The notes beneath the pieces are model-generated. The model did not search any database. It worked only from the letters and a program-made list of their open reading frames with translations, and was not told the origin of the DNA. Positions 1,320 through 42,583 of a stretch of 64,000 nt of DNA are shown here, one piece after another (within the stretch, counting starts at the first letter, position 1; each line of letters opens with the position of its first letter). Both the position numbers and the translations under genes were made by a program. The DNA comes from Urbifossiella limnaea (GTDB taxonomy: Bacteria; Planctomycetota; Planctomycetia; Gemmatales; Gemmataceae): positions 682,001 to 746,000 of the forward strand of contig NZ_CP036273.1 of NCBI RefSeq assembly GCF_007747215.1, in the 5' to 3' direction.

Positions 1320-2524
1320 ATGGACGCCTATCCGGCGGAAGTCGAGGCGATGATGAAGCGGCTGGCGGGCTGGTTGTCCGAGAAGGACCGCCGCCGGTAC
1401 GCCGCCGTCGAAGCGGCGAAACTCGGGCACGGCGGCGTCGAATACATCGCCCGCCTGCTGGCCTGCGATCCGAAGACCATCCGACAAGGCCTGCAGGATC
1501 TGGAACAACCCGACGACCCGGCCGACGGCCGGGTCCGAAAAAAGGGGGCGGACGTCGCCCGCTGATGGCGGCCCGACCGTCCCTCGGCGACAACCTCCGG
1601 CACCTGCTCCCGGAGTTCACCGCCGGGGACCCGATGCGGGACGGCGTACTCTGGACCAACCTGTCGCTGCGGGAACTGTCGCGGCGGTTGGCGGCGATGG
1701 GCACCCCGGCCGGTCGCCGGACGATCCGGCGGGCGTTGCGGGCCCTCCAGATCGGCCGCCGGACGGCCCGCAAGAAGAAGTCGATGGGCCACCACCCCGA
1801 CCGGAACGCCCAGTTCGAGAACATCGCGGACCTCCGGCGGGGGTACGAGGCGGCCGGCGACCCGGTGATCAGCGTGGGCACGAAGAAGAAGGAACTGCTG
1901 GGGAACTTCCACCGCGGCGGGGAGACGTATACGTCCCAGACGGTGGAGACCTTCGACCACGACTTCCCCCGGGCCGGGTCCGGCAAGCTGATCCCCCACG
2001 GCATCTTCGACGTGGCCCGCAACCACGCGTCCATCCACCTCAACACGTCGCACGACACCGGCGAACTGTGCTGCGACAGCATCGCGCTGTGGTGGCACGA
2101 GCACGGCCGTGCCGCCTACCCGGACGCGAAGCGGTTATTGATCCTGTGCGACGGCGGCGGCAGCAACAGTGCCACCCAGTACCTGTTCCAGGAGGACCTG
2201 CAACGCCTGGCGGACCGACTGGCGATCGAACTCCGGGTGGCCCATTACCCGCCGTACTGCTCGAAGCACAATCCGATCGAGCACAAGGTGTTCCCGCACA
2301 TCACGCGGGCGTGTCGGGGCGTGATCTTCCACACCGTGGAGGTCGCCCGGCAATTCATCGCCCGGGCGAGGACGGACGCCGGCCTGCGGGTGACCGTGAG
2401 CCTACTGGACAAGGTGTACGCCACCGGTCGGAAGTACGTCGAAGGGTTCCGGACGAGCATGAAGATCGCCTTCGACGACTACCTCCCGAAATGGAACTAC
2501 CGAGCCCTACCCCAAACCGCATGA
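1320..2524 (+). CDS. ISAzo13-family transposase, made by -1 frameshift
   Basis: Two overlapping frames encode one protein. The first starts at ATG 1320 and, unshifted, ends at 1565 after 81 codons; it carries an N-terminal helical DNA-binding part (VEYIARLLACDPKTIRQGLQ). The second, in the -1 frame, runs to the stop at 2522-2524 and carries the catalytic domain, with DFPRAGSGKLIPHGIFDV, the DGGGSN motif and a later NPIEH motif typical of ISAzo13 DDE transposases. The frames meet at the heptamer A AAA AAG (1538-1544) in the zero frame, a standard -1 slippery site. The fused product would be about 400 residues, the usual family length. The gene looks intact, so the element may be active. Confidence 0.87.
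1538..1544 (+). other. Programmed -1 frameshift heptamer A_AAA_AAG
   Basis: In the zero frame the codons read CGA AAA AAG GGG; slipping back one base gives AAA AAA GGG GGC GGA, which enters the long catalytic frame. Both the sequence and its phase fit the X XXY YYZ rule. GC-rich sequence follows at once and could stall the ribosome. The frameshift itself is inferred, not shown. Confidence 0.8.
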
Positions 2525-2558
2525 ATTCGGGAAGTAGTTGAGGACCAGATCCTTAGCG

Positions 2559-2983
2559 AAGCCGTCTTCCTGACCGACGCGTGCCTCGGCAAGTCGGTCG
2601 GGGAGGCGCTCCGCGCCGCCGGCTGGGTCGTCGAGTGGCACCTGGATCACTTTCCCGAAGGTACCGAGGACGTGGCCTGGCTCCCGGTCGCAGGGGAACG
2701 TGGCTGGGTGGTGCTGACCAAGGACAAGGCCATCCGCCGCAAGCCGGCCGAGCGAGAGAAGGTGATCGCCTACGGCGTGCGGATGTTCACGCTCCCGAGC
2801 GGGAGCATGAACGGCGAGGAGATGGCGCAGACGTTCCTCGACAGCGGCCGGGACATCGGCCGCACCCTCCACCGCCACCCGTGGCCGTTCGTGGCCCAAG
2901 TTTCGCGGCAGGGCGTAACCGTACTGCTCGAAGAGCCACCGTCGGAGCCGCCCGGCGAGGGAGCCGAATCGGACGACGAATGA
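2559..2983 (+). pseudogene. PIN-like (VapC45-type) toxin-like gene lacking its start at the IS border
   Basis: Translation in the frame ending at 2983 gives SEAVFLTDACLGKSVG, then EWHLDHFPEGTEDVAWLP and WVVLTKDKAIRRKPAERE. This is the conserved layout of PIN-like RNase domains of the VapC45 type: an early Asp, 'LGK', the D-H-FP segment and 'LTKDK'. The frame is open leftwards into the IS right end, but no ATG or GTG lies between the element and the conserved core; the first GTG (2672) would remove about 40 residues including the first acidic residue. The original start was probably an ATG just before SEAV, where the IS now ends. The protein tail is acidic. No antitoxin partner is visible. The family assignment is firm; loss of function is inferred from the missing start. 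Confidence 0.72.
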
Positions 2984-3001
2984 GACACACGTCGCGCCGT
3001 A

Positions 3002-3385
3002 CTACGCCAGCCCCAGCCGCCGGCGGGCGCTCTCCGAGTAGCTGAACACCAACTCCTCCCCCGCGGCGACCGGGCGGCGGGTCCGCAGCACCACCCGGCC
3101 GGGGTGCTCGACGCGCTCCAGGTTGGCGTCCGCGGCGTGGTTGACGAGGCCGCCAAGCCCCATCGGGATGAGCAGCAGGTCGGCGCCGACGCGGAACTTG
3201 TGGTGGTCGGCGAAGTGGGTGCAGCGGTCGGCGGGCGAGTCGCGGCGGACCAGCACGCCGACCACCTCCAGTTCCGCCCCCGCCGGCAGGTCGGCGCGGG
3301 CGAACACGCCGAGGCCGGCGCCGGGGATGAGCGACGGCCGCACCTCGAACCGGTCGTCGGGCGGCGGGTCGATCAGCGGGTTCAC
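3002..3385 (-). CDS. Small SET-domain protein
   Basis: This 127-residue protein is almost only a SET fold. It begins FEVRPSLIPGAGLGVFAR (the usual 'S.I.G.GLFA' opening), has HADLLLIPMG-like strands, the NHAADANLE segment matching the 'NHSC.PN' knot, and ends GEELVFSYSESARRRLG, matching 'GEEL.. DY'. Such stand-alone bacterial SET proteins are probable protein-lysine methyltransferases using S-adenosylmethionine; the target is unknown. The GTG start at 3385 overlaps the TGA of the upstream oxidoreductase (GTGA), so the two are very likely translationally coupled. The usual SET tyrosine is present (FSYSE), but the post-SET cysteines are absent. Confidence 0.78.
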   Translation of the reverse strand: MNPLIDPPPDDRFEVRPSLIPGAGLGVFARADLPAGAELEVVGVLVRRDSPADRCTHFADHHKFRVGADLLLIPMGLGGLVNHAADANLERVEHPGRVVLRTRRPVAAGEELVFSYSESARRRLGLA

Positions 3386-4677
3386 ACCAGCTTCCACTTG
3401 GCCCTCGGCTCGCGGCTCAGCTCGCGGTTCGCGGCGGCGTCGTTCACGAACCGCTCCGCCTTCGCGTCCCACGTCAGCTTGCGGTTCAGGCGGTAGCCGA
3501 TGTTGCCGAGGTGGCAGATGCTCGCGCTGCGGTGACCGACCTCCGCCGGGCAGATCGTCTCCTTCTTCGCCCGGATGCACTCCAGCCAGTTGCCGTGGTG
3601 GCTCGTCGCCGCGTACACCTTGCGGTCGTCCGCGCCGATCGGCCGCTCCAGGACCGTGCCCGGCCGGCTGCTGATGCCGCCGCGACCGACCAGGATCGTG
3701 CCGTCGGAGCCCTCGAACACGCAGTCGGCCTTGATCTCCATCCCGTCGGCGCCGCGGGCGAACTCGTTGTGGATCATCGTCACGCCGTTGGGGTAGACGA
3801 ATCGCAGGCCGCGGACCGCGCGCGGGTTCTCCGGCGGGATCACTTCGAGCGGGCCGGCGCCGTCCATGCGCATGGCCCACTGGGCGATGTCGAAGTGGTG
3901 GGCGCCCATGTCGGCGAGCTGGCCGCCGGCGTACTCCTGGTAGCGCCGCCACGCCGGGAACCCCTGGTGGACGCCGCGCGGGCACAGCACCGAGTTGTAC
4001 GGCCGCTCCGGCGCCGGCCCGAGCCACGCGTCCCAGTCGGTGCCTTCCGGCTTCTGCTCTTCCGGCAGGTTGCACGGCACGGCCGGCTCGCCGACGCCGA
4101 TGCGGACGGTGTGCAGCTTGCCGATGCGGCCGTTCCACACGTACTCGACGGCCTTGCGGAAGTGGCCGCCGAACTCGGTCCGCTGCTGGCTGCCGGTCTG
4201 GAAGATCACCTTCGCCTTGGCGATCTCGTCCACGAGCTGCCGGCCCTCGGCGAGGTTCTGAGTCAGCGGCTTCTCGCAGTAGATGTGCTTGCCGGCCCGT
4301 GCGGCGAGGATGGCGGGCATGGCATGCCAGTGGTCCGGCGTGGCGATGACGACGGCGTCGAGGCCCGGCGTGGCGAGCACCTCGCGGAAGTCGGCGACGG
4401 CGCGGACGCCGCGGTACTGGCCGGACTTGAGGCGGTCGGCGTAGCGGGTCTCGACCATCGTGCGGGCGCTGTCGCGGCGCTCCTTCACCACGTCGCACAC
4501 GGCGACGACCTCGACCTCGCGGCGGCCGAGGAACCCGCCGAGGTGGCCGCGGCCCATCGTGCCGACGCCGATGAACCCGAGGGTGATCTTGTTCGACGGC
4601 GCGTCCTGGCCGCGGAGGGCCGCGGTGGTGACGAGCGGCGCGGCCGCGAGGAACGAGCGGCGGGAGAGGCGGGGCAT
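3382..4677 (-). CDS. Tat-exported Gfo/Idh/MocA family oxidoreductase
   Basis: A 431-residue protein with a twin-arginine signal at its N-terminus (LSRRSFLAAAPLV), followed by the NAD(P)-binding Rossmann motif GFIGVGTMGRGHLGGF and the family signature YCEKPLTQN near residue 125. The C-terminal two-thirds is the alpha/beta dimerisation and substrate domain, including the GAHHFDIAQWAM helix with the usual catalytic His. Planctomycetes have many exported members that act on sugars or polyols; the substrate here cannot be deduced. It is the first gene of a pair with the SET protein. The gap upstream to the esterase is filled by a long inverted repeat, so the two are probably separate units. Confidence 0.9.
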   Translation of the reverse strand: MPRLSRRSFLAAAPLVTTAALRGQDAPSNKITLGFIGVGTMGRGHLGGFLGRREVEVVAVCDVVKERRDSARTMVETRYADRLKSGQYRGVRAVADFREVLATPGLDAVVIATPDHWHAMPAILAARAGKHIYCEKPLTQNLAEGRQLVDEIAKAKVIFQTGSQQRTEFGGHFRKAVEYVWNGRIGKLHTVRIGVGEPAVPCNLPEEQKPEGTDWDAWLGPAPERPYNSVLCPRGVHQGFPAWRRYQEYAGGQLADMGAHHFDIAQWAMRMDGAGPLEVIPPENPRAVRGLRFVYPNGVTMIHNEFARGADGMEIKADCVFEGSDGTILVGRGGISSRPGTVLERPIGADDRKVYAATSHHGNWLECIRAKKETICPAEVGHRSASICHLGNIGYRLNRKLTWDAKAERFVNDAAANRELSREPRAKWKLV

Positions 4678-4699
4678 GGGAACCTCGGGGAGGGTAGGG

Positions 4700-4801
4700 C
4701 CGGCGAGCCGCCCGCCGTCAGGCGGCGGGTGGCGCCACGAAGAACTTTCGCGTGCGTGATCGGGGGCGCCACCCGCCGCCTGACGGCGGGCGGCTCGCCG
4801 G
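4700..4801. repeat. Long perfect inverted repeat (37-bp arms), family B
   Basis: Arms at 4700-4736 and 4765-4801 are perfect reverse complements of 37 bases, separated by a 28-bp loop. The arms begin CCGGCGAGCCGCCCGCCGTC. Related shorter copies with the core CGGCTGACGCCG or GCGAGCGGC occur near 37070, inside the gene at 52957-52981, and (with a different core) at 63648-63728. It lies between two genes on the same strand and could end transcription, but the arms are far longer than a terminator needs; a mobile palindromic element fits better. Confidence 0.85.
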
Positions 4802-4804
4802 GTG

Positions 4805-5728
4805 CTACTGCTTCGCCAGGTGCGTGTCGAACCAGTCCACGCACTTCTCGATGTCCTTGCCGATGTCGCCCCAGCCGTGCGCGGCGCCGGGCTTCACCAC
4901 CAGCTCGGCCGTCGCCCCGGCCTGCTTGTACGCCGCCACCATCACCTCGGCCTGCTGGATTGGCACCAGCGTGTCCTTGTCGCCGTGGATGATGAGCGCC
5001 GGGGCGCTGTCCTTCGTCGCGTGGTACGCCGGCGAGATCTGCTTGCCGATCCGGCGGCGCTTCTCCTCGTCGGTGATCACGACGTACGCCTTGGTCGCGT
5101 CGTCGAACTCGACGAAGTTGAACGGCGCCCGGAAGCCCTTCAGCGTGCCGTCGCCGAGCGCCACGTTCCCGGTCTTGCCGTAGTTCAGGAAGTCGGTCGG
5201 CGGGAAGAAGCACGCCACCGCCGCCACCTTCGACGACTCCAGATCGACCTTGTCCTTGGTGAGCGGGTTGCCCGGCCGCGGCGCCACGCCCTGCATCAGC
5301 GACAGGTGCCCGCCGGCCGACGCCCCGCTGATGCCGAGGCGGTCCTTGTCGATGCCGTACTTGCCGGCGTTGGCGCGGACGAACCGCACCGCCCGGTGCA
5401 TGTCGTCGAGCACCTCGGGGATGCTGAACCGCGGCTGGCTGCCGTGGACGACCTGGAACACGGTGTAGCCGCGGTCGAGGTACGGCTTGGCGAACCCGAC
5501 GTTGACGCTGTCGTGGTTCGAGTACCACCCGCCGCTGACGCACCAGATGACGCCGGCGCCGTTGGCCTTGGCCTTCGGGGTGAACACGTCCATCGTCAGC
5601 GCCGTGCCGAACTTCCGGCCGTAAATCACGTCTTCGGTGCGGGTGAAGCCGGGGTCGGGCTGGGCGGCGGCGGGGGCGAGCGCGGCGAACAGCGGCACGG
5701 CCAGGAGCAGGGCTCGGAGGGGAGTCAT
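4805..5728 (-). CDS. Exported alpha/beta hydrolase (esterase/peptidase-like)
   Basis: A 307-residue protein with a cleavable signal peptide (hydrophobic residues 4-20, AAA-Q end). The hydrolase fold shows a WCVSGGWYS oxyanion-loop segment, the nucleophile elbow GISGASAGGH, the acidic residue in IIHGDKDTLVP and the catalytic His in PGAAHGWGD. This is the BD-FAE/prolyl-oligopeptidase-like group common in planctomycetes, often acting on acylated carbohydrates in the periplasm. The insertion YGKTGNVALGDGTLKGF before the Asp-bearing strand is typical of this subgroup. Substrate unknown. The gene stands alone between a long inverted repeat and the downstream end of the DUF4139-like gene. Confidence 0.85.
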   Translation of the reverse strand: MTPLRALLLAVPLFAALAPAAAQPDPGFTRTEDVIYGRKFGTALTMDVFTPKAKANGAGVIWCVSGGWYSNHDSVNVGFAKPYLDRGYTVFQVVHGSQPRFSIPEVLDDMHRAVRFVRANAGKYGIDKDRLGISGASAGGHLSLMQGVAPRPGNPLTKDKVDLESSKVAAVACFFPPTDFLNYGKTGNVALGDGTLKGFRAPFNFVEFDDATKAYVVITDEEKRRRIGKQISPAYHATKDSAPALIIHGDKDTLVPIQQAEVMVAAYKQAGATAELVVKPGAAHGWGDIGKDIEKCVDWFDTHLAKQ

Positions 5729-5813
5729 CGCGGCACCCGGGGTGGGGGGAAAGAGTGATCGTCGCCGGTCGGCGGCCCGCGGTCAAGGGTCGGCCGCGGG
5801 AACCCCCACACCC

Positions 5814-8039
5814 TCAGTCCGTCAGGTTCGCCAGGAAGTCCTCGAACGTCTTGCGCGACGTGAACTCCGCGGCCATCAGCGTCTTCTCGCGGGCCGTCAG
5901 GCCGTCGATCTCGCGCTCCTGCGTCGCCAGCCGCGTCAGGTACGTCTGGTACACCTCCGCCTCCCGCGGCGTCGCCGCCAGGTTCTTGCGGATGCGGTCC
6001 TGGTCGGTCCCCACCCGCGCCAGGTCGGCCTTCACCTGCGTCAGGTCGCGCAGCTGCCCGTCCCACGCGGCCTTCAGCTTCATCGCCTCGGCCAGCTTCT
6101 GCTTCAGCGCCGGCGTCGCCTCGTTCAGGCTCAGGAAGAAGCGGATCTGCCCGTCCGGGTTGTTCGACAGCGCCACCTGCGTGGACACGTCGCGCTCCTC
6201 CGTCACCGGGAACGTCTTCTCCTCGCCGGCCTTCACCGCCACCTGGAACCGGTACACCTCCTTGGTGTCCTCGACCGGCGCAGCGGTCTCGACGAGCTTG
6301 AACTGCTGGTTGGTGCGGTTCGCGTGCTCGATGACGAGCGTGCGGTCGGTCTGGCTGCGGTTGGCGACGCGGTACTTCTTCTCCTCGCGTACCTTCGTCA
6401 CCGTGGTGACGATTCCCTTCACCGCCTTCACGCTCGTGATGCGCGCCGAGCCCGGCCCGGACTGCGGATCGACTTCGGTGCCCAGGTCGATGGCGTAGCT
6501 GACGAGCCGCTCCTCGCCCGGCTGCACGTCCAGGACGCGGGTGTCGCCGGCGTACGTGCTCCCCTCGAACACCGTGATCGGTCCTTGCGACAGGTGCATG
6601 CCCGAGGTGTTCTTGAAGCGGAGCCCGAGCAGCGGGTGCTTCGGCTGCACGGCCGGGTTGTAGATGCTGACGCGGGTGCCCTCGACCTCCTTACCGACGA
6701 TCGGCAGCAGGGCGCTCTTCTGGCGGGCGAGCGACACCGGGTGGTCGATGGCGTACTGGAAGAAGTCGCCGAGCTTGCCGGCCGTGGCGGCGCTGCCGAC
6801 GGCCGCGGTGCCGAGCCGCGTCGCCAGCTCGCGGCCGAGTTGCCGCGACCCGTCGCCGGCGGTCGCCGCCGTGACCGACTTCCGCAACACCTCCGCCGCC
6901 TTCGACTCGCCCGGCCGACCGGGGTCGGCCTTCGCCCGTTTTGCGCTCTCGACGACCACGCCGGCGAAGGACTTCTCCGCCTCCCGCTCGATGTCGGGAG
7001 GCGCGGCTTGGTGCGGATCGAATCCGATGTCCTTGATCGTCAGGTCGGTCACCCGGTCGCGGCGGGCGAAGCCGCCGTCGTAGGTCGGCGGGCGCAGCGA
7101 TGCGAACAGCTCCGGCTCGACCGTCGGCCGCGGCACGTACAGCGGGTTGTACAAGTCCATCTTGAAGCTGATCGGCCGGCCGCTGATAAGCGCCATCCGC
7201 ACGCCGCTCCAGTCCTCGTCCGTCGGGTTCTCCACGACCGCCCACCCTTGCAGGTACGGTTTCCCGCCCTTGCCCTCGGCATCCAGCACGAGCCGGTAGC
7301 TCGTCTTCCAGATCGGCGCCTCGACGACGTACCCCACCTGCACGCGCCGCTTCCCGTCGCCGGCGAAGTGGAGGCTCACCGCCTTCTTCGCGGCGTCGTG
7401 GTTGAGCGCCAGCACCTCCAGGGCGCGGCGGAACTCGGACTCGATGACCGGGTTGAGGAATCGCAGCTGCTGCACCTCGGTCAGCTTGATGGCGCGCAGC
7501 CCTTCGGCGCACCAGAGGTTCAGCACCGACACCGGCACGCCATTCGGCCCGGCCTGTGGTTCGACGCCGACAATCGACCCCGTCACCTTGCCCGGCTGGT
7601 TCTGCGCCGTCGGCGTGGTCGTCACCTCGACCCGCTCGCCGCGGGCCTGCCGGAGGATGCCGGCGAAAGTGGTGTCGCCGTTCAGGTTGATCGAGAAGCT
7701 GGCCAGCGTCCGGGCGATCGGCTCGCGGCTGTCGTAGCTCACCGCGGCGACGCGGCCGCCGCCGAAGTCTTCCAGGACCATCGACTTGATCAAGTCGTTG
7801 ATGTCCGCTTCCTGGAAGGTGAGGTCGACGCGGGCGTCGCCGTCCACCTCGCCGCTGCGGCTCAGGTAGCTGACGACGCTGTTGAACAGCACGACCCGGC
7901 TGATCGGCAGGGTGACGGCGGGCCGGAGGTCTTGCCTGGCGTCCGCGAGGGCGGCGGCGGCGAGCCAGCGGTCGGCGACGGCGGCGGCCCCAACGGCGCC
8001 GGCCAGCGGCAGGCCCCACAACAGCGTCCGACGGAGCAT
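5814..8039 (-). CDS. Membrane-anchored DUF4139-like protein
   Basis: A 741-residue protein with one N-terminal hydrophobic segment (residues 6-25), then a long beta-rich region beginning ISRVVLFNSVVSYLSRSGEV. The middle part, about residues 230-500, resembles DUF4139 proteins (VGYVVEAPIWKTSYRLVL, ENPTDEDWSGVRMALISGRP), where a wall- or membrane-exposed beta domain is assembled from repeated strands. The C-terminal 150 residues are helical and charged, ending with KTFEDFLANLTD, and probably form a coiled coil. The function of this family is not established. The start at ATG 8039 puts the hydrophobic segment at the very N-terminus. It may share a transcript with the exported hypothetical gene upstream, about 100 bp away. 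Confidence 0.72.
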   Translation of the reverse strand: MLRRTLLWGLPLAGAVGAAAVADRWLAAAALADARQDLRPAVTLPISRVVLFNSVVSYLSRSGEVDGDARVDLTFQEADINDLIKSMVLEDFGGGRVAAVSYDSREPIARTLASFSINLNGDTTFAGILRQARGERVEVTTTPTAQNQPGKVTGSIVGVEPQAGPNGVPVSVLNLWCAEGLRAIKLTEVQQLRFLNPVIESEFRRALEVLALNHDAAKKAVSLHFAGDGKRRVQVGYVVEAPIWKTSYRLVLDAEGKGGKPYLQGWAVVENPTDEDWSGVRMALISGRPISFKMDLYNPLYVPRPTVEPELFASLRPPTYDGGFARRDRVTDLTIKDIGFDPHQAAPPDIEREAEKSFAGVVVESAKRAKADPGRPGESKAAEVLRKSVTAATAGDGSRQLGRELATRLGTAAVGSAATAGKLGDFFQYAIDHPVSLARQKSALLPIVGKEVEGTRVSIYNPAVQPKHPLLGLRFKNTSGMHLSQGPITVFEGSTYAGDTRVLDVQPGEERLVSYAIDLGTEVDPQSGPGSARITSVKAVKGIVTTVTKVREEKKYRVANRSQTDRTLVIEHANRTNQQFKLVETAAPVEDTKEVYRFQVAVKAGEEKTFPVTEERDVSTQVALSNNPDGQIRFFLSLNEATPALKQKLAEAMKLKAAWDGQLRDLTQVKADLARVGTDQDRIRKNLAATPREAEVYQTYLTRLATQEREIDGLTAREKTLMAAEFTSRKTFEDFLANLTD

Positions 8040-26108: not shown

Positions 26109-28395
<2,287 letters not shown>

Positions 28396-28429
28396 CGCGG
28401 GCGGCACCGGCTGCGGCTGCGGCAGCGCC

Positions 28430-28579
28430 CCGGGCTCGACGGCCACCTCGACCGTCGGCGGGGCGACGGACGGGAACAGCGACCGCGGCAGCGTGACGTA
28501 CCCCAGCACCCCCAGGAAAAAACAGGAGGATGGAGATCACCATGTCCAGGGCCGGCCGGTGGAGGATGTTCGTGAACAT
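28430..28579 (-). pseudogene. 5' fragment of an RND (HAE1-type) efflux pump gene, frameshifted
   Basis: ATG 28579 starts MFTNILHRPALDMVISILLFF, the cytosolic start and first membrane helix of an RND pump. One base too many in a run of six T (about 28518-28523, minus strand) then shifts the frame; the other frame continues LGYVTLPRSLFPSVAPPTVE, as expected. Similarity ends near 28430. About 50 of over 1000 residues remain. The piece is directly downstream of the MFP fragment, so it was taken from a normal adaptor-pump operon. Confidence 0.75.
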
Positions 28580-28655
28580 GAAGTCCGGTGGAGTCCCGTG
28601 CGGGTGGGGGGGGGACGGACGAATGACGAAGATTCCTCAGTCGTCACTCACTCGG

Positions 28656-29180
28656 CTACTCGGCGTGGAACTTCTGCGTCCCGAGGACCAGGTCGGCCGG
28701 CTTGAACTCGACATTCACCTTCTCGCCGTCGTGGACCTCGCGGACGCCCTCGACCACGATCCGATCGTCCGGCCCGAGGCCCGGCCCGACCACGTACACG
28801 TCCTCCAACTCGTGCGGGACGCGGATCATGCGCTGGTGCACCACGCCCTCGGCGTCCACCACGTAGACGTACCGCTTGTCGAGGATCTCGTCGTCGCCCG
28901 CTGGGGGATGACGACGGCGCCGGCGAGGCGGCGGTGGACCTGCACAGTGCCGGTCAGACCGTGGCGGATGAGCCCGTCCGGGTTCGGGAAGTCGGCGCGG
29001 AACGGGATGTTCTCGGCCTGCGGGTCGGACTTGCCGGTGATCGTGAGGAGCTGGGTCGGGTGCGGGAACTTGCGCCCGTTGGCCAGCACGAGCTCGATCT
29101 ACCGGGCCTCGATGGGGCTCGCACTGGACCGGTACTCGTAGTACCGGATCTCGGGCACGTTGAAGTACACCCACATCACC
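28656..29180 (-). pseudogene. 3' fragment of a membrane-fusion (adaptor) protein gene, with a TAG and a frameshift
   Basis: Reading down from 29180: VMWVYFNVPEIRYYEYR, then an in-frame TAG at 29099-29101, IELVLANGRKFPHPTQLL and LIRHGLTGTVQVHRR, VVIPQRAT, then a one-base loss near 28901 and the other frame EILDKRYVYVVDAEGVVHQ to the stop at 28656. This is the C-terminal half (beta-barrel and membrane-proximal domains) of a MexA/AcrA-like adaptor of the planctomycete type. The N-terminal half is missing; at about 29180-29196 the sequence switches to an Ig-like gene on the opposite strand. With three separate lesions it cannot work. Between this fragment and the pump fragment (28580-28655) lie a short copy of the GACGAATGACGA repeat and a G-run. 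Confidence 0.8.
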
Positions 29181-29416
29181 CGGTGCCGGTATGCGAACGT
29201 CGCCTCGGCGGCGGTGTCGGTCACGTATGACGCGACGGCGCCGGTCGTCACCGTCTCGTCGCTCGTCGCCAAGACCAGCCTGCCGACGCTCACCGGAACG
29301 GTGGACGACTCGACGGCGACCGTGAGCGTTACCGCCGGCGGCCAGACGGTGACGGCGACCGTCTCCGGCACGACCTGGACCGCCGCCCTCACGACGGCGC
29401 TGGCCGACGGCACCTA

Positions 29417-30476
29417 AGCAGTTGGCCCCGATTGCGTACCATGTTTCATGATCCGCGTTCACCTCACCGTTGCGACGCAGTCCGAGTTGCAGGCTCTCCG
29501 GCGGGACCCCCTCCCGCCCCGGGTACGGGATCGGCTGGAGATGGTCCTGCTGTCCGACGCCGGGTGGTCCCCGCCCCGGATCGCCCGGCACCTCGGGTGT
29601 GACCCGCAGACCGCCCGGGCCGTGATCCACGGGTTCAACGCCCGGGGGGTGCCGGCCCTCTACCCCGGCAAGCCCGGGCCGGCCCCCAACTACGCCCGCC
29701 GGGATCAGGTGGCCGCCCGGCTGACCGACCTGCTCGGCCAGGACCGGACGTGGACGGCGGCCCAACTGGCCGACGCCCTCCGCCCCAACGGGATCCGGCT
29801 CCGTGCCCGTCAGGTCCGTCGGTACCTCGCCCGACTGCGGGCCGGGTACCGGCGGACGGCCTCGACCCTGGAGCACAAGCAGAACCGGCCCAAGGTCGCC
29901 CGGGCGGCGGCCGTCCTGGGCGGCCTGCAACGGAAGGCCCGGGAGGGCCGGCTGGTCCTGGACTATCTCGACCAGTGCGGGTTCGCCCCGTCGCTGCCCG
30001 GTGGGTACTCGTGGTGCCTGCCGGGCCAGCGGAAGCGGGTCCGGTACGAGTACCCCCAAGGTCGGCGGGTCAACGTCCTGGCCACCTACGAGCCGCTCGG
30101 CCCGGCCCCCCGCTTGGATGCCGTGCCGTTCGAGCGGACGCTCACGTCGGACGACCTCGTGGCCTACCTGCGGGGGAGGCCCGCGGTCGGGCGACCCCGG
30201 GTGGTGGTTCTGGACAACGCCCCGATCCACACCAGCAAGGTGGTCAAGGCCGCCCGGCCCGAGCTGGCGAAGTCGGGGGTCTACCTGTACTACCTGCCGG
30301 CGTACAGCCCCGAGTTGAACCGGATCGAGGCCGTGTTCAAGCAGGTCAAGCACCACGAGATCCCGACCCGCAGTTACGCCACCCGGTCCGATCTGCGGGC
30401 GGCCGTCGAGCAGGGCTTCAACTCATATGCCCAAAAGCTCCGCCCAGAACCTGGGAAACAACTACGGCCGGCTGCT
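29417..30476 (+). mobile_element. IS630-type insertion sequence (Tc1/mariner-like, TA target)
   Basis: 1060 bp flanked by a TA duplication (29415-29416 and 30477-30478). Removing the element and one TA restores the host codons ACC TAC GAC. The ends are short imperfect inverted repeats starting AGCAGTTGGCC on the left and AGCAGCCGGCC on the right (complement). It carries one transposase frame. Both the target and the precise reconstruction make the borders certain. Confidence 0.93.
29448..30476 (+). CDS. IS630-family transposase, without a stop codon of its own
   Basis: 343 codons from ATG 29448. The N-terminal HTH part has WSPPRIARHLGCDPQTARAVIHGF; the DDE catalytic domain has DYLDQCGFAPSLPGG (first Asp), VVLDNAPIHTSKV (second Asp) and YSPELNRIEAVF (Glu). 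The element ends exactly after a GCT codon, so the next codon starts with the duplicated TA. With A or G after the TA the frame would end in TAA or TAG; here it is TAC, and the transposase is fused in frame to the Ig-like/FKBP protein up to 32093 (881 codons in total). Whether the fusion is made is unknown; the transposase domains are intact. Confidence 0.88.
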
Positions 30477-32124
30477 TACGACGTCACCGCCACCGCGACG
30501 GACGCGGCCGGGAACACGTCGTCGGCGACCGCCGCCGGCGGCCTGGTGATCGACGCGACCGCCCCGACGGCGACCGTGACCACGACCGCGCCCGACCCGG
30601 CGACGACGAACCCGATCCCGGTGACGGTGACCTTCAGCAAGCCTGTCACCGGGTTCGAGGCCGGCGACCTCGTGCTCACGAACGCCGCGGCCATCAACTT
30701 CACGGCGGTGGACGCGCAGACGTACACGTTCGACCTCGTCCCCGACGGCGGCGGGACCGTGAGCGTGCTGGTCAACGGCGGCGCGGCCGCGGACGCCGCC
30801 GGGTACACCAGTCTGACCTCAGGCGCCCTGATGCGAACCTTCTCCGGCCCGGTCACGGCCGTCCCGGTCGCCACCACCGCCGTCAGCCCGACGAACGCCG
30901 CGACCGTCCCGGTCACGGTCACGTTCAGCGGCGACGTGACCGGGTTCGATGCCTCCGACGTGACGGTTACGAACGGCACGGTCACGAACTTCACGGCGCT
31001 CGACGGCCGGACGTACACCGCCGACATCACCCCGACCGCGGACGGCGTGGTGAGCGTCACGGTCGCCGCCGGCGCCGCGACCGACGCGGGCGGCGGGCCG
31101 ACGGCAGCGGCGCAGCCGGTCGCGGTCACGTCCGACCGTACCGCGCCGACCGCGGCCGGGCCGACGAACACCGGCTCGCTCACCTTCACGATCACGTTCA
31201 GCGAGGGCGTGACCGGCTTCGACGCGTCCGGCGTCGCCGTCACCAACGGCACGCTCGACGCCCTGACGCCGGGGGACGGGCGATCTTTCACGGCAACGGT
31301 CACCTCTGCCGCGGACGGCACCGTGACCCTGACGGTCCTGGCCGGGAGCGCCGCGGACGCCGCCGGAAACCCGACCGCCGCCGACGCCCTGGGCAGCGCC
31401 GTCTATGACACCACCGGCCCGTCGCCGCTCGTCAGTTCCAGCGCGAGTGACCCGACCAGCAGCACGTCGATCCCGTTCTCCGTGACGTTCGACGAGGGCG
31501 TGACCGGGTTCGACGAGTACGACCTGACGGCCACGAACGGGATCGTGTTCAACTTCACGGCGGTGAGCGCCAGCACCTACACCTTCTCCATCTACCCGGG
31601 CGCCGCCGGCCTCGTGACGGTGGGCTTGGCCGCGGGCGTGGCGACGGACGCCGCCGGGAACGTCAACGCGGCCGCCGCCGCCGTCAGCCGCACGTACGCG
31701 TACACCTCCACCGACGCCTCGGGCCTGGTGGAGACCATGCCGGACGTGAACGCGGCGGAGTGGCAGACGCAGGCCGACGGACTGAAAATCTGGGACGCGC
31801 AGGTCGGGACAGATGACGCGGTCGCGGCGGGCTCGACCGTCGAGGTGTACTACACGGGCTGGCTCGCAAGCGACGGCACCGAGTTCGACTCGAACCGGAC
31901 CGCCGCCTCGGCGGCGTCGTTCGCGCTGAGCAACCTGATCGCGGGCTGGCAGGAGGGGCTGGTCGGGATGCAGGAGGGCGGCATCCGCCGGCTCTACATC
32001 CCGGCCGCGCTCGGGTACGGGTCGGGCGGCTCGAGCAGCATCCCCGCGGACGCCGACCTCGTGTTCGAGATCAAGCTCGTCTCGGTCAGCTGACGCGACG
32101 ACAGCGGCTGGTGGGCGAACGCGT

Positions 32125-32811
32125 TTAGCCGCGGGCCGGCCCCAGGTCCGCGGTCTGCGCCGCCTCCCACTGCGGCACGTTGCCGATCGGCAGCCAGTAG
32201 CCCGCCTCGACGACCTCGAACCGGCCGCGTGCCGCCAGCAGCGACACCGCCTCGGTGATCTCGTACTCGCCGCGCACGGATTCGGTCAGCGTCAGGTCGA
32301 ACACCGAGCGCGGGAACAGGTACGCCCCGATGTTCGCCAGTTGCGGCCCCGGCAGGTCCGGCTTCTCGATCAGCTCCTTCAGGGAGCCGTCCGCGTGGCG
32401 GAAGATGATGCCGTAGTCCTTCGGCGTGTCCACCGGCCGGGCCAGGATGCCCATCGGCACCGCCGCCAGCCGCGCCAGGTCGGCGCGGCCCATCAGGTCG
32501 TCGCCGTTGAGCACCATCACCCGGTCGGAGCGCACCGCCCCGCGGCAACTCATCAGCGCGTCGCCGGTGCCGCGCGGCACCGCCTGCCGCACCGTCACCC
32601 AGTCGCGGACGTGCGGCTGCCCCTTCAGGTACTCCTCGAGCTGCTCCGCGAGGTAGTTCACGACCACGACGAGCCGGTCGACCGGCGGCAGCGCGGCGAT
32701 GATCCAGTCGAGGATGGGGCGGCCCTGCACCGGCAGCAGCGGCTTGGGCACGTCGTTGGTGTGCGGGCGGAGGCGGGTGCCTTTGCCGGCGGCCAGGATG
32801 ATCGCGTCCAT
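32125..32811 (-). CDS. Sugar-1-phosphate nucleotidyltransferase
   Basis: 228 residues. The nucleotidyltransferase signature MDAIILAAGKGTRLRPHTND is followed by KPLLPVQGRPILDW, the NGDDLMG metal-binding Asp motif, the EKP motif (LKELIEKPDLPG) and a final strand with YWLPIGNVPQWEAA. It is the short RmlA/GlmU-N/GalU-like form without a C-terminal left-handed helix domain, so it should make an NDP-sugar from a sugar 1-phosphate and NTP. Base and sugar cannot be told apart. It is convergent with the Ig-like gene and stands alone. Confidence 0.9.
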   Translation of the reverse strand: MDAIILAAGKGTRLRPHTNDVPKPLLPVQGRPILDWIIAALPPVDRLVVVVNYLAEQLEEYLKGQPHVRDWVTVRQAVPRGTGDALMSCRGAVRSDRVMVLNGDDLMGRADLARLAAVPMGILARPVDTPKDYGIIFRHADGSLKELIEKPDLPGPQLANIGAYLFPRSVFDLTLTESVRGEYEITEAVSLLAARGRFEVVEAGYWLPIGNVPQWEAAQTADLGPARG

Positions 32812-33042
32812 TCGGCCCTCGTAACCCGTGAATCCGCTCCGGGCAGTGTATCGGGGGAAATCGGCGGGGGCGGCGGGTTCGGGTGAACCGTGGCGACCTC
32901 GGCGGCCGATACAACCGGCGTCGGGCGGGGCGTGGCAGGAGCCGAGCCCCGGCCGGCGCCGGCCCGCCGGCGCGGGGGCTTCGCGGCCCCGGTCGCGCCG
33001 GCGGGCCGGGTATTGGTAGCCCGAACCACGGATGGACCCGTC

Positions 33043-33291
33043 ATGACCCGCCGAGTACTGATGACCGCCGTCGTGGGGGTGCTGGCCGCCGGGTTCGGCT
33101 GCAAGCACGTGGGCGGGAAGTGCGACTGCGGCGCCCACCCGGGCGACGCCGTGATCACCGGCCCGACCCCGCCGTACCCGACGGCCCCGGCCCCCGGGAT
33201 GCCGACCACGACCCCGCCGAGCATCCCGCCGGCGAACAGCCCGACCAAGTCGGCCCCCGGCACGCTGCCGATGCCGATGCCGAAGTCGTGA
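33043..33291 (+). CDS. Small proline-rich lipoprotein
   Basis: 82 residues with a lipoprotein signal (hydrophobic VLMTAVVGVLAAGFGC, lipobox Cys at residue 20), then KCDCGAHPGD and a Pro/Thr/Ala-rich tail. Three Cys follow in HVGGKCDCGAHP, which could bind a metal or form a disulfide. I recognise no family; low-complexity lipoproteins of this kind are frequent in planctomycetes. It is followed directly by a perfect palindrome. Confidence 0.55.
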   Translation: MTRRVLMTAVVGVLAAGFGCKHVGGKCDCGAHPGDAVITGPTPPYPTAPAPGMPTTTPPSIPPANSPTKSAPGTLPMPMPKS

Positions 33292-33294
33292 GTT

Positions 33295-33332
33295 GAGCGA
33301 AGCCCGGGGACGGCCGTCCCCGGGCTTCGCTC
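33295..33332. terminator. 38-bp perfect palindrome between convergent genes
   Basis: A self-complementary sequence with 19-base arms (GAGCGAAGCCCGGGGACGG and its complement) starts 3 bp after the lipoprotein stop and ends 2 bp before the stop of the convergent gcvPB gene. It can fold in both directions. No T-run follows, so it is a terminator by position rather than by full motif. Confidence 0.65.
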
Positions 33333-33334
33333 GT

Positions 33335-34798
33335 TCACACCGGCGCGCGCCACCGCAGCACCGGCTCCTTCGCCGCCTTCACCTCGTCCGGCCGGCTCAC
33401 CACGTGCGTGTGCGGCGCCGTCTTCAGCAACTCCGCGTCCTCGCCCTTGATCGTCAGCAGCACGTCGGCGAACGCGTCGAGCGTCTCCTTGCTCTCGGTC
33501 TCCGTCGGCTCCATCATCAGCGCCTCGGGCACGACGAGCGGGAAGTACACCGTCGGGGCGTGGAACCCGTAGTCGAGCAGCCGCTTGCACACGTCCATCG
33601 CCCGCACCTTCCGCTCGCGCAGGAGCGACCGGCCGCTGGCCACGAACTCGTGCATGCACGGCCCCGGGTGCGGCACGTCGAACGCCTCGCTGACTCGCGC
33701 CCGCAGGTAGTTGGCGTTCAGCACCGCCGTCTCGCTGCACGCCTTCAGCCCGTCCGGGCCGAGCGTGCGGATGTAGCAGTACCCGCGGAACAGGATGCCG
33801 ACGTTCCCGAAGAACGACCGCACCCGGCCGATGGTCTTGTCGCGCGTGTCGCTCAGGCGGAACGTGTCGCCGTCCCTCACCACGACGGGCGCCGGGAGGT
33901 ACGGGGCGAGGAAGTCGCGGACGGCGATGGGGCCGCTGCCGGGGCCGCCGCCGCCGTGCGGGCCGGTGAACGTCTTGTGCACGTTGTAGTGCTGCATGTC
34001 GGCGCCGAAGTCGCCCGGCCGGGTGATGCCGAGGATGGCGTTCATGTTCGCGCCGTCGAGGTACACCAGCCCGCCGGCCGCGTGGACCAGGTCCGTGATC
34101 TGGCGAATCTGCACCTCGAACAGCCCGAGCGTGTTCGGGTTCGTGATCATGAACACCGCGGTGTCGGCGCCGAGCTTCGCCTTCAATTCCTCCAGGTCCA
34201 CCAGCCCCTTGGCGTTGCTCTTGACGGTGACGGTGTCGAACCCGGCGAGTTGCGCCGACGCCGGGTTGGTGCCGTGCGCCGAGTCGGGGACGAGCACCTT
34301 GCGGCGGTGCGTCTGCCCCTTGTCGCGGAAGTACGCGGCGGCGACGAGCAGCGCCGTGAGTTCGCCCTGCGCCCCGGCCGCGGGCTGGAGCGACACGGCC
34401 GGCAGGCCGCTGATCTCGGCGAGGAACTGCTGCATCTCGTAGAGGAGTTCGAGCATCCCCTGAACGGTGTCGTCGGGCTGGAGGGGGTGGAGGTCGGCGA
34501 ACCCCGGCAGCGCCGCGAGCCGCTCGTGCCGCTTCGGGTTGTACTTCATGGTGCACGAGCCCAGCGGGTAGAACTGGGTGTCGATGCACATGTTCCGCGT
34601 GGACAGGTTGGTGAAGTGGCGGATCAGGTCGATCTCGGCGACTTCGGGCAGCGGCGGCGGCTCCGCGGCGAGGAACCGGTCGGGGACGAGCGATGACAGC
34701 GGGGTGTCAGCGGGCACGTCGCACGGGGGGACGCGGTGCCCGCGGCGTCCGGGCCGGGACAGCTCGAACACGAGCTCGGTGGACTGGGTGTTGTTCAT
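33335..34798 (-). CDS. gcvPB: Glycine dehydrogenase (decarboxylating) subunit 2
   Basis: 487 residues, the C-terminal half of the two-piece P protein. It has the family start (TRNMCIDTQFYPLGSCTMKY), the glycine-rich QPAAGAQGELTALL, and the PLP Lys in YNVHKTFTGPHGGGGPG. With GcvPA it decarboxylates glycine and moves the aminomethyl group to lipoyl-GcvH. The ATG at 34798 is the only one before the conserved block; the longer frame upstream is unsupported. It is the last gene of the gcvT-gcvH-gcvPA-(DUF4058)-gcvPB series, separated from gcvPA by a broken DUF4058 gene. Confidence 0.96.
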   Translation of the reverse strand: MNNTQSTELVFELSRPGRRGHRVPPCDVPADTPLSSLVPDRFLAAEPPPLPEVAEIDLIRHFTNLSTRNMCIDTQFYPLGSCTMKYNPKRHERLAALPGFADLHPLQPDDTVQGMLELLYEMQQFLAEISGLPAVSLQPAAGAQGELTALLVAAAYFRDKGQTHRRKVLVPDSAHGTNPASAQLAGFDTVTVKSNAKGLVDLEELKAKLGADTAVFMITNPNTLGLFEVQIRQITDLVHAAGGLVYLDGANMNAILGITRPGDFGADMQHYNVHKTFTGPHGGGGPGSGPIAVRDFLAPYLPAPVVVRDGDTFRLSDTRDKTIGRVRSFFGNVGILFRGYCYIRTLGPDGLKACSETAVLNANYLRARVSEAFDVPHPGPCMHEFVASGRSLLRERKVRAMDVCKRLLDYGFHAPTVYFPLVVPEALMMEPTETESKETLDAFADVLLTIKGEDAELLKTAPHTHVVSRPDEVKAAKEPVLRWRAPV

Positions 34799-42577: not shown

Positions 42578-42583
42578 CACGAG

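Follow-up and report, generated by a model that had tools for sequence, protein, structure and literature searches.

The window analysed here is a stretch of 64,000 nucleotides of the Urbifossiella limnaea genome (G000, C1, positions 682001-746000), which is available as a single contig of 7,795,793 bases and is 97% complete. At the locus under study, parts of three unrelated genes follow one another on alternating strands (Table 1): a plus-strand frame for an acyl-CoA synthetase (ACS), a minus-strand relic of an efflux operon and a plus-strand Ig-repeat/FKBP gene. The left gene carries the Pfam domains Acetyltransf_1, CoA_binding_2, Succ_CoA_lig and ATP-grasp_5 (positions 4-82 of 221), and its break falls inside the ATP-grasp domain. 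Its product is 69-70% identical to intact relatives, the last matching residues being ...GLADAEAVR, and the relatives extend well beyond 100 aa further in frame. The middle piece (28427-29179; 753 bp) aligns over its full length to positions 2388-1642 of contig C495 of the congener G001 (77% DNA identity, E 7e-159), where a complete adaptor gene (1072-2169) and a complete RND pump gene (2234-5896) are found. It begins near residue 190 of the adaptor, includes the adaptor stop codon and the spacer behind it, and takes in the first ~50 residues of the RND pump, with sharp ends on both sides; tblastn searches with the two frames of the adaptor remnant matched 22 relatives. The right gene shares 80% DNA identity with a gene on G001 contig C370 from ~29193 onwards and 65.5% protein identity over 606 aa; the congener's gene extends further on the N-terminal side. 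A first-pass annotation of this DNA had described a piece of a membrane-fusion protein (MFP)-RND operon between two unrelated truncated genes, and our alignments confirm both the limits of similarity that it gave and the loss of the gene ends that face the piece. As judged by alignment, the matches and breakpoints exceed chance by far.

Table 1 Features of the locus (window coordinates).
Feature	Position	Strand	Basis or remark
GNAT and NDP-forming acyl-CoA synthetase pseudogene, without C-terminus	26109..28388	+	Pfam, protein alignment
In-frame TAG in the ACS gene	27198..27200	+	same frame open again from 27201
Left joint, GC-rich, 38 bp	28389..28426	.	no match to ACS relatives or RND gene
RND pump 5' remnant	28427..28579	-	~50 codons from ATG at 28579; 77% DNA identity with G001:C495
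T-run (A6 on plus strand) in RND remnant	28517..28522	-	alignment; frame shifts from MFTNILHRP.. to LGVLGYVTLP..
Membrane-fusion (adaptor) gene 3' remnant, N-terminal half missing	28656..29179	-	alignment to G001:C495; tblastn
Right joint, ~13 bp	29180..29192	.	between adaptor identity end 29179 and Ig identity start ~29193
Ig-repeat (Big_12)/FKBP gene without N-terminal part, IS-interrupted	29193..32093	+	Pfam Big_12 x4, FKBP_C
IS630-like element (DDE_3 transposase), 1060 bp	29417..30476	+	Pfam DDE_3, HTH_23; TA duplicated at 29415-29416 and 30477-30478

Decay of the three genes and their missing parts

The middle piece is, to judge from its sequence, a pseudogene remnant, left over from an MFP-RND efflux operon. 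Its adaptor part contains a TAG at 29099-29101 (CTA on the plus strand) and a base loss near 28898, and its pump part, recognisable by the peptides MFTNILHRP.. and ..SLFPSVAPPTVEVA, contains the T-run; all three lesions had been reported before and are visible both in the sequence and in the alignment to the G001 operon. In addition to these disabling changes, the distal parts of both genes are gone from the genome. Complete adaptor and pump genes, as a working RND efflux pump comprises, are not present here; the relic has no function of its own, and no frame in it can yield an adaptor or a pump. Window-specific changes number 46 in adaptor segment A (19/13/14 by codon position) against 16 in G001, with an excess at codon positions 1 and 2, whereas segment B displays no such excess.

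The ACS gene was compared in the same manner, in a three-way comparison of the segment 3' of its TAG with a relative (L119) and an outgroup (L122), and additionally with a second relative (L120). Window-specific changes were distributed over the codon positions as 50/48/50 versus 23/9/120 in L119, and as 44/39/60 versus 27/14/82 when L120 was used. Such an even spread would be the pattern expected of relaxed constraint, although the relatives used are divergent and unequal in GC3. At the FKBP end of the right gene, window-specific changes were not in excess. The Ig-FKBP side is otherwise open and may not be dead, which forms a counterpoint to reading all three genes as debris.

The first-pass annotation had also suggested a search of the genome for the intact operon and for the missing ends of the outer genes, and none of these was found at comparable identity. 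The whole G001 operon retrieved only the relic (77%) and RND/MFP paralogues with at most about 70% identity when longer stretches are aligned. Long intact pump genes are present in all three of the paralogue regions that we read. An adaptor at E<1e-70 is absent from the genome, and one is present in 31 of the 95 family genomes, including the congeners G001, G003 and G005. Likewise, neither a DNA search with the ACS region nor one with the G001 Ig gene revealed a further copy at comparable identity, and the middle piece has no second copy in its own genome. These results bear on an assembly misjoin of unrelated contigs, an explanation that might come to mind for pieces of three unrelated genes within 800 bp but is very unlikely, because the missing halves of intact loci were not found elsewhere in a genome assembled as a single 7.8 Mb contig; furthermore, disabling mutations are present within the piece itself. 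As far as the assembled sequence can tell, the arrangement is probably real rather than an assembly artefact.

The Ig-repeat gene is split by an IS630-like element located 237 bp from the right joint. Assignment to the IS630 family follows from the DDE_3 transposase, the TA target duplication and the presence of several copies, with nine insertion sites genome-wide; the eight others, complete or interrupted, lie at C1:1235536, 1634507, 3131079, 3531820, 4633979/4636083, 5644261, 6686096 and 7792698. The proximity of one copy to the right joint, together with the number of sites in the genome, could suggest that this element or an earlier copy mediated an adjacent deletion. That scenario is the least probable of those considered here: the element abuts neither joint, and the exact duplication of TA and the Ig-gene sequence matching continuously on both sides point to a later simple insertion. 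The earlier statement that no IS, repeat or tRNA lies at the joints holds for the joints themselves, with no tRNA nearby (the only one of the window is at 42583), but it leaves out the element at 29417-30476.

The transposase frame of these elements lacks a stop codon of its own, and the eight other insertions are in CTAG, where the duplicated TA followed by G provides a TAG stop at once. A stop borrowed at CTAG is known for IS870. The copy in the window sits in CTAC, and its transposase frame reads through into the Ig-FKBP sequence, creating an open frame of 882 aa (29448-32093) that gene callers could misreport as a transposase-Ig-FKBP fusion. In the copy at C1:4633979-4636309, about 1.3 kb of unrelated sequence splits the element.

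Joints and chromosomal setting

Neither joint could be traced to a source. The longest exact match of the left joint elsewhere is 17 bp, equal to that of random 38-mers, and no source was identified for the right joint. Between the two joints, the longest direct match is 5 bp. The right joint contains CCGGTGCCG (29181-29189), the reverse complement of CGGCACCGG (28405-28413) in the left joint, and such an inverted pair raises the prospect that the segment was flipped by inversion through short inverted repeats. We regard this as very improbable, since in a window this rich in GC 1.8% of random site pairs share a match of at least 9 bp, and a flip leaves the four missing facing gene ends unaccounted for. 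Terminal repeats, a target duplication or an integrase, as expected of a mobile element or cassette, were not found at the joints, where the matches are within the range of chance, and neither joint displays junction homology indicating a mechanism. A search for the junction pattern across genome contigs, whose scope may not have included the records of this genome itself, produced no match.

Comparison with relatives did not reveal an ancestral arrangement. ACS, MFP-RND and Ig-FKBP matches, compared by eye across 95 family genomes, are never found next to one another, and the nearest MFP and FKBP matches sharing a contig are about 83 kb apart (G082, C34). On the contigs of ten ACS relatives, on four NTP-transferase contigs and on the congener MFP-RND contigs, the other two genes were never adjacent, and no relative presents an intermediate or pre-event locus. 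An RND gene upstream of ACS in G055 was considered as the ancestral neighbour and rejected, being of a different type and on the other side. The first-pass reading of the piece as an internal operon segment, in reverse orientation and decayed, is supported, whereas its term ‘spliced’ implies an insertion, which is one of two possible histories.

On the left, the ACS gene adjoins a minus-strand formate dehydrogenase (FDH)-like cluster (window ~20.5-25.9 kb) with NuoE/NuoF-like and molybdopterin subunits. Comparable sets of FDH, hydrogenase, ACS and universal-stress genes occur in G004 (C1136 and C1096) and also near ACS in other genera. The ACS/FDH side is part of an island with a counterpart in G004, where it lies next to another ACS type; that ACS, with a C-terminal GNAT domain, was rejected as a congener orthologue, and the searches made in the congeners revealed no close relative of the ACS gene. 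To the right, synteny breaks at 33216-33340, between an NTP-transferase region (32132-33216) and a block from 33340. The NTP-transferase gene and this block, adjacent here, are divided between contigs (in G002, G003, G004 and G005) or lie far apart in those congeners that have both, and this split, together with the ACS/FDH side, points to a rearranged boundary zone.

Origin of the patchwork and its known counterparts

The locus is a pseudogene patchwork, genuine, old and ordinary as biology: genome debris from rearrangement and deletion, with no working device. The history that we consider very probable begins with illegitimate joining. Under this reading, at least two non-homologous joining events would have united the three gene remnants, and the MFP-RND efflux operon would have disappeared from the genome save for the 753 bp across the adaptor/pump boundary. 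The joining events would have been deletions or rearrangements within this lineage, most likely through erosion of a once larger region bordering the FDH/ACS island, with mutational decay setting in after joining and the IS630-like insertion arriving later.

A more specific history, in which a double-strand break between the ACS and Ig genes was repaired with a short piece of efflux-operon DNA as filler, is possible but doubtful. Several features agree with such capture: the piece is short, ends within a gene on both sides and runs opposite to the genes around it, the bases at both joints are unexplained, and none of the 95 family genomes has the three genes next to one another. Conversely, the genome contains no donor copy, and the absence of a match to Ku (PF02735), a protein that the control search detected in Bacillus subtilis, is evidence against classical end joining. 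The same picture could also arise from two plain deletions. Given that no relative retains the pre-event locus and that the genes are never neighbours in 95 genomes, the sequence is explained equally well by insertion of a fragment and by what two deletions would have left behind. Broader still, and highly improbable in our view, is the notion that Ku-independent end joining or template switching joins short inverted fragments, with untemplated joints, between unrelated genes, and that such patchworks are common in this genome.

Returning to the debris of at least two joinings, the locus is of low importance on its own, as what it records is that a single lineage lost one efflux operon. Should such patchworks prove frequent, large planctomycete genomes would contain an archive of illegitimate recombination events. 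Our literature survey on Gemmata pseudogenes, gene remnants and IS630/CTAG stop codons yielded nothing specific.

Three known systems provide a frame for the locus. The inserted element resembles the IS630 family in its transposase, TA duplication and length, and differs from the eight other copies in the genome, all in CTAG, in its CTAC target. The middle piece shares with the HAE1-type RND efflux operon of G001 (C495, L019) the adaptor-then-pump order and 77% of DNA positions from the end of the adaptor through the spacer into the pump, but it has lost the N-terminal half of the adaptor and about 95% of the pump, and contains a stop and frameshifts. Finally, the locus as a whole resembles bacterial pseudogenes and gene remnants in its truncations, in-frame stops, frameshifts, absent partners, signs of relaxed constraint and nearby IS; unlike in those, three unrelated remnants, the middle one inverted, meet here within 0.8 kb, which is unusual only as a coincidence.
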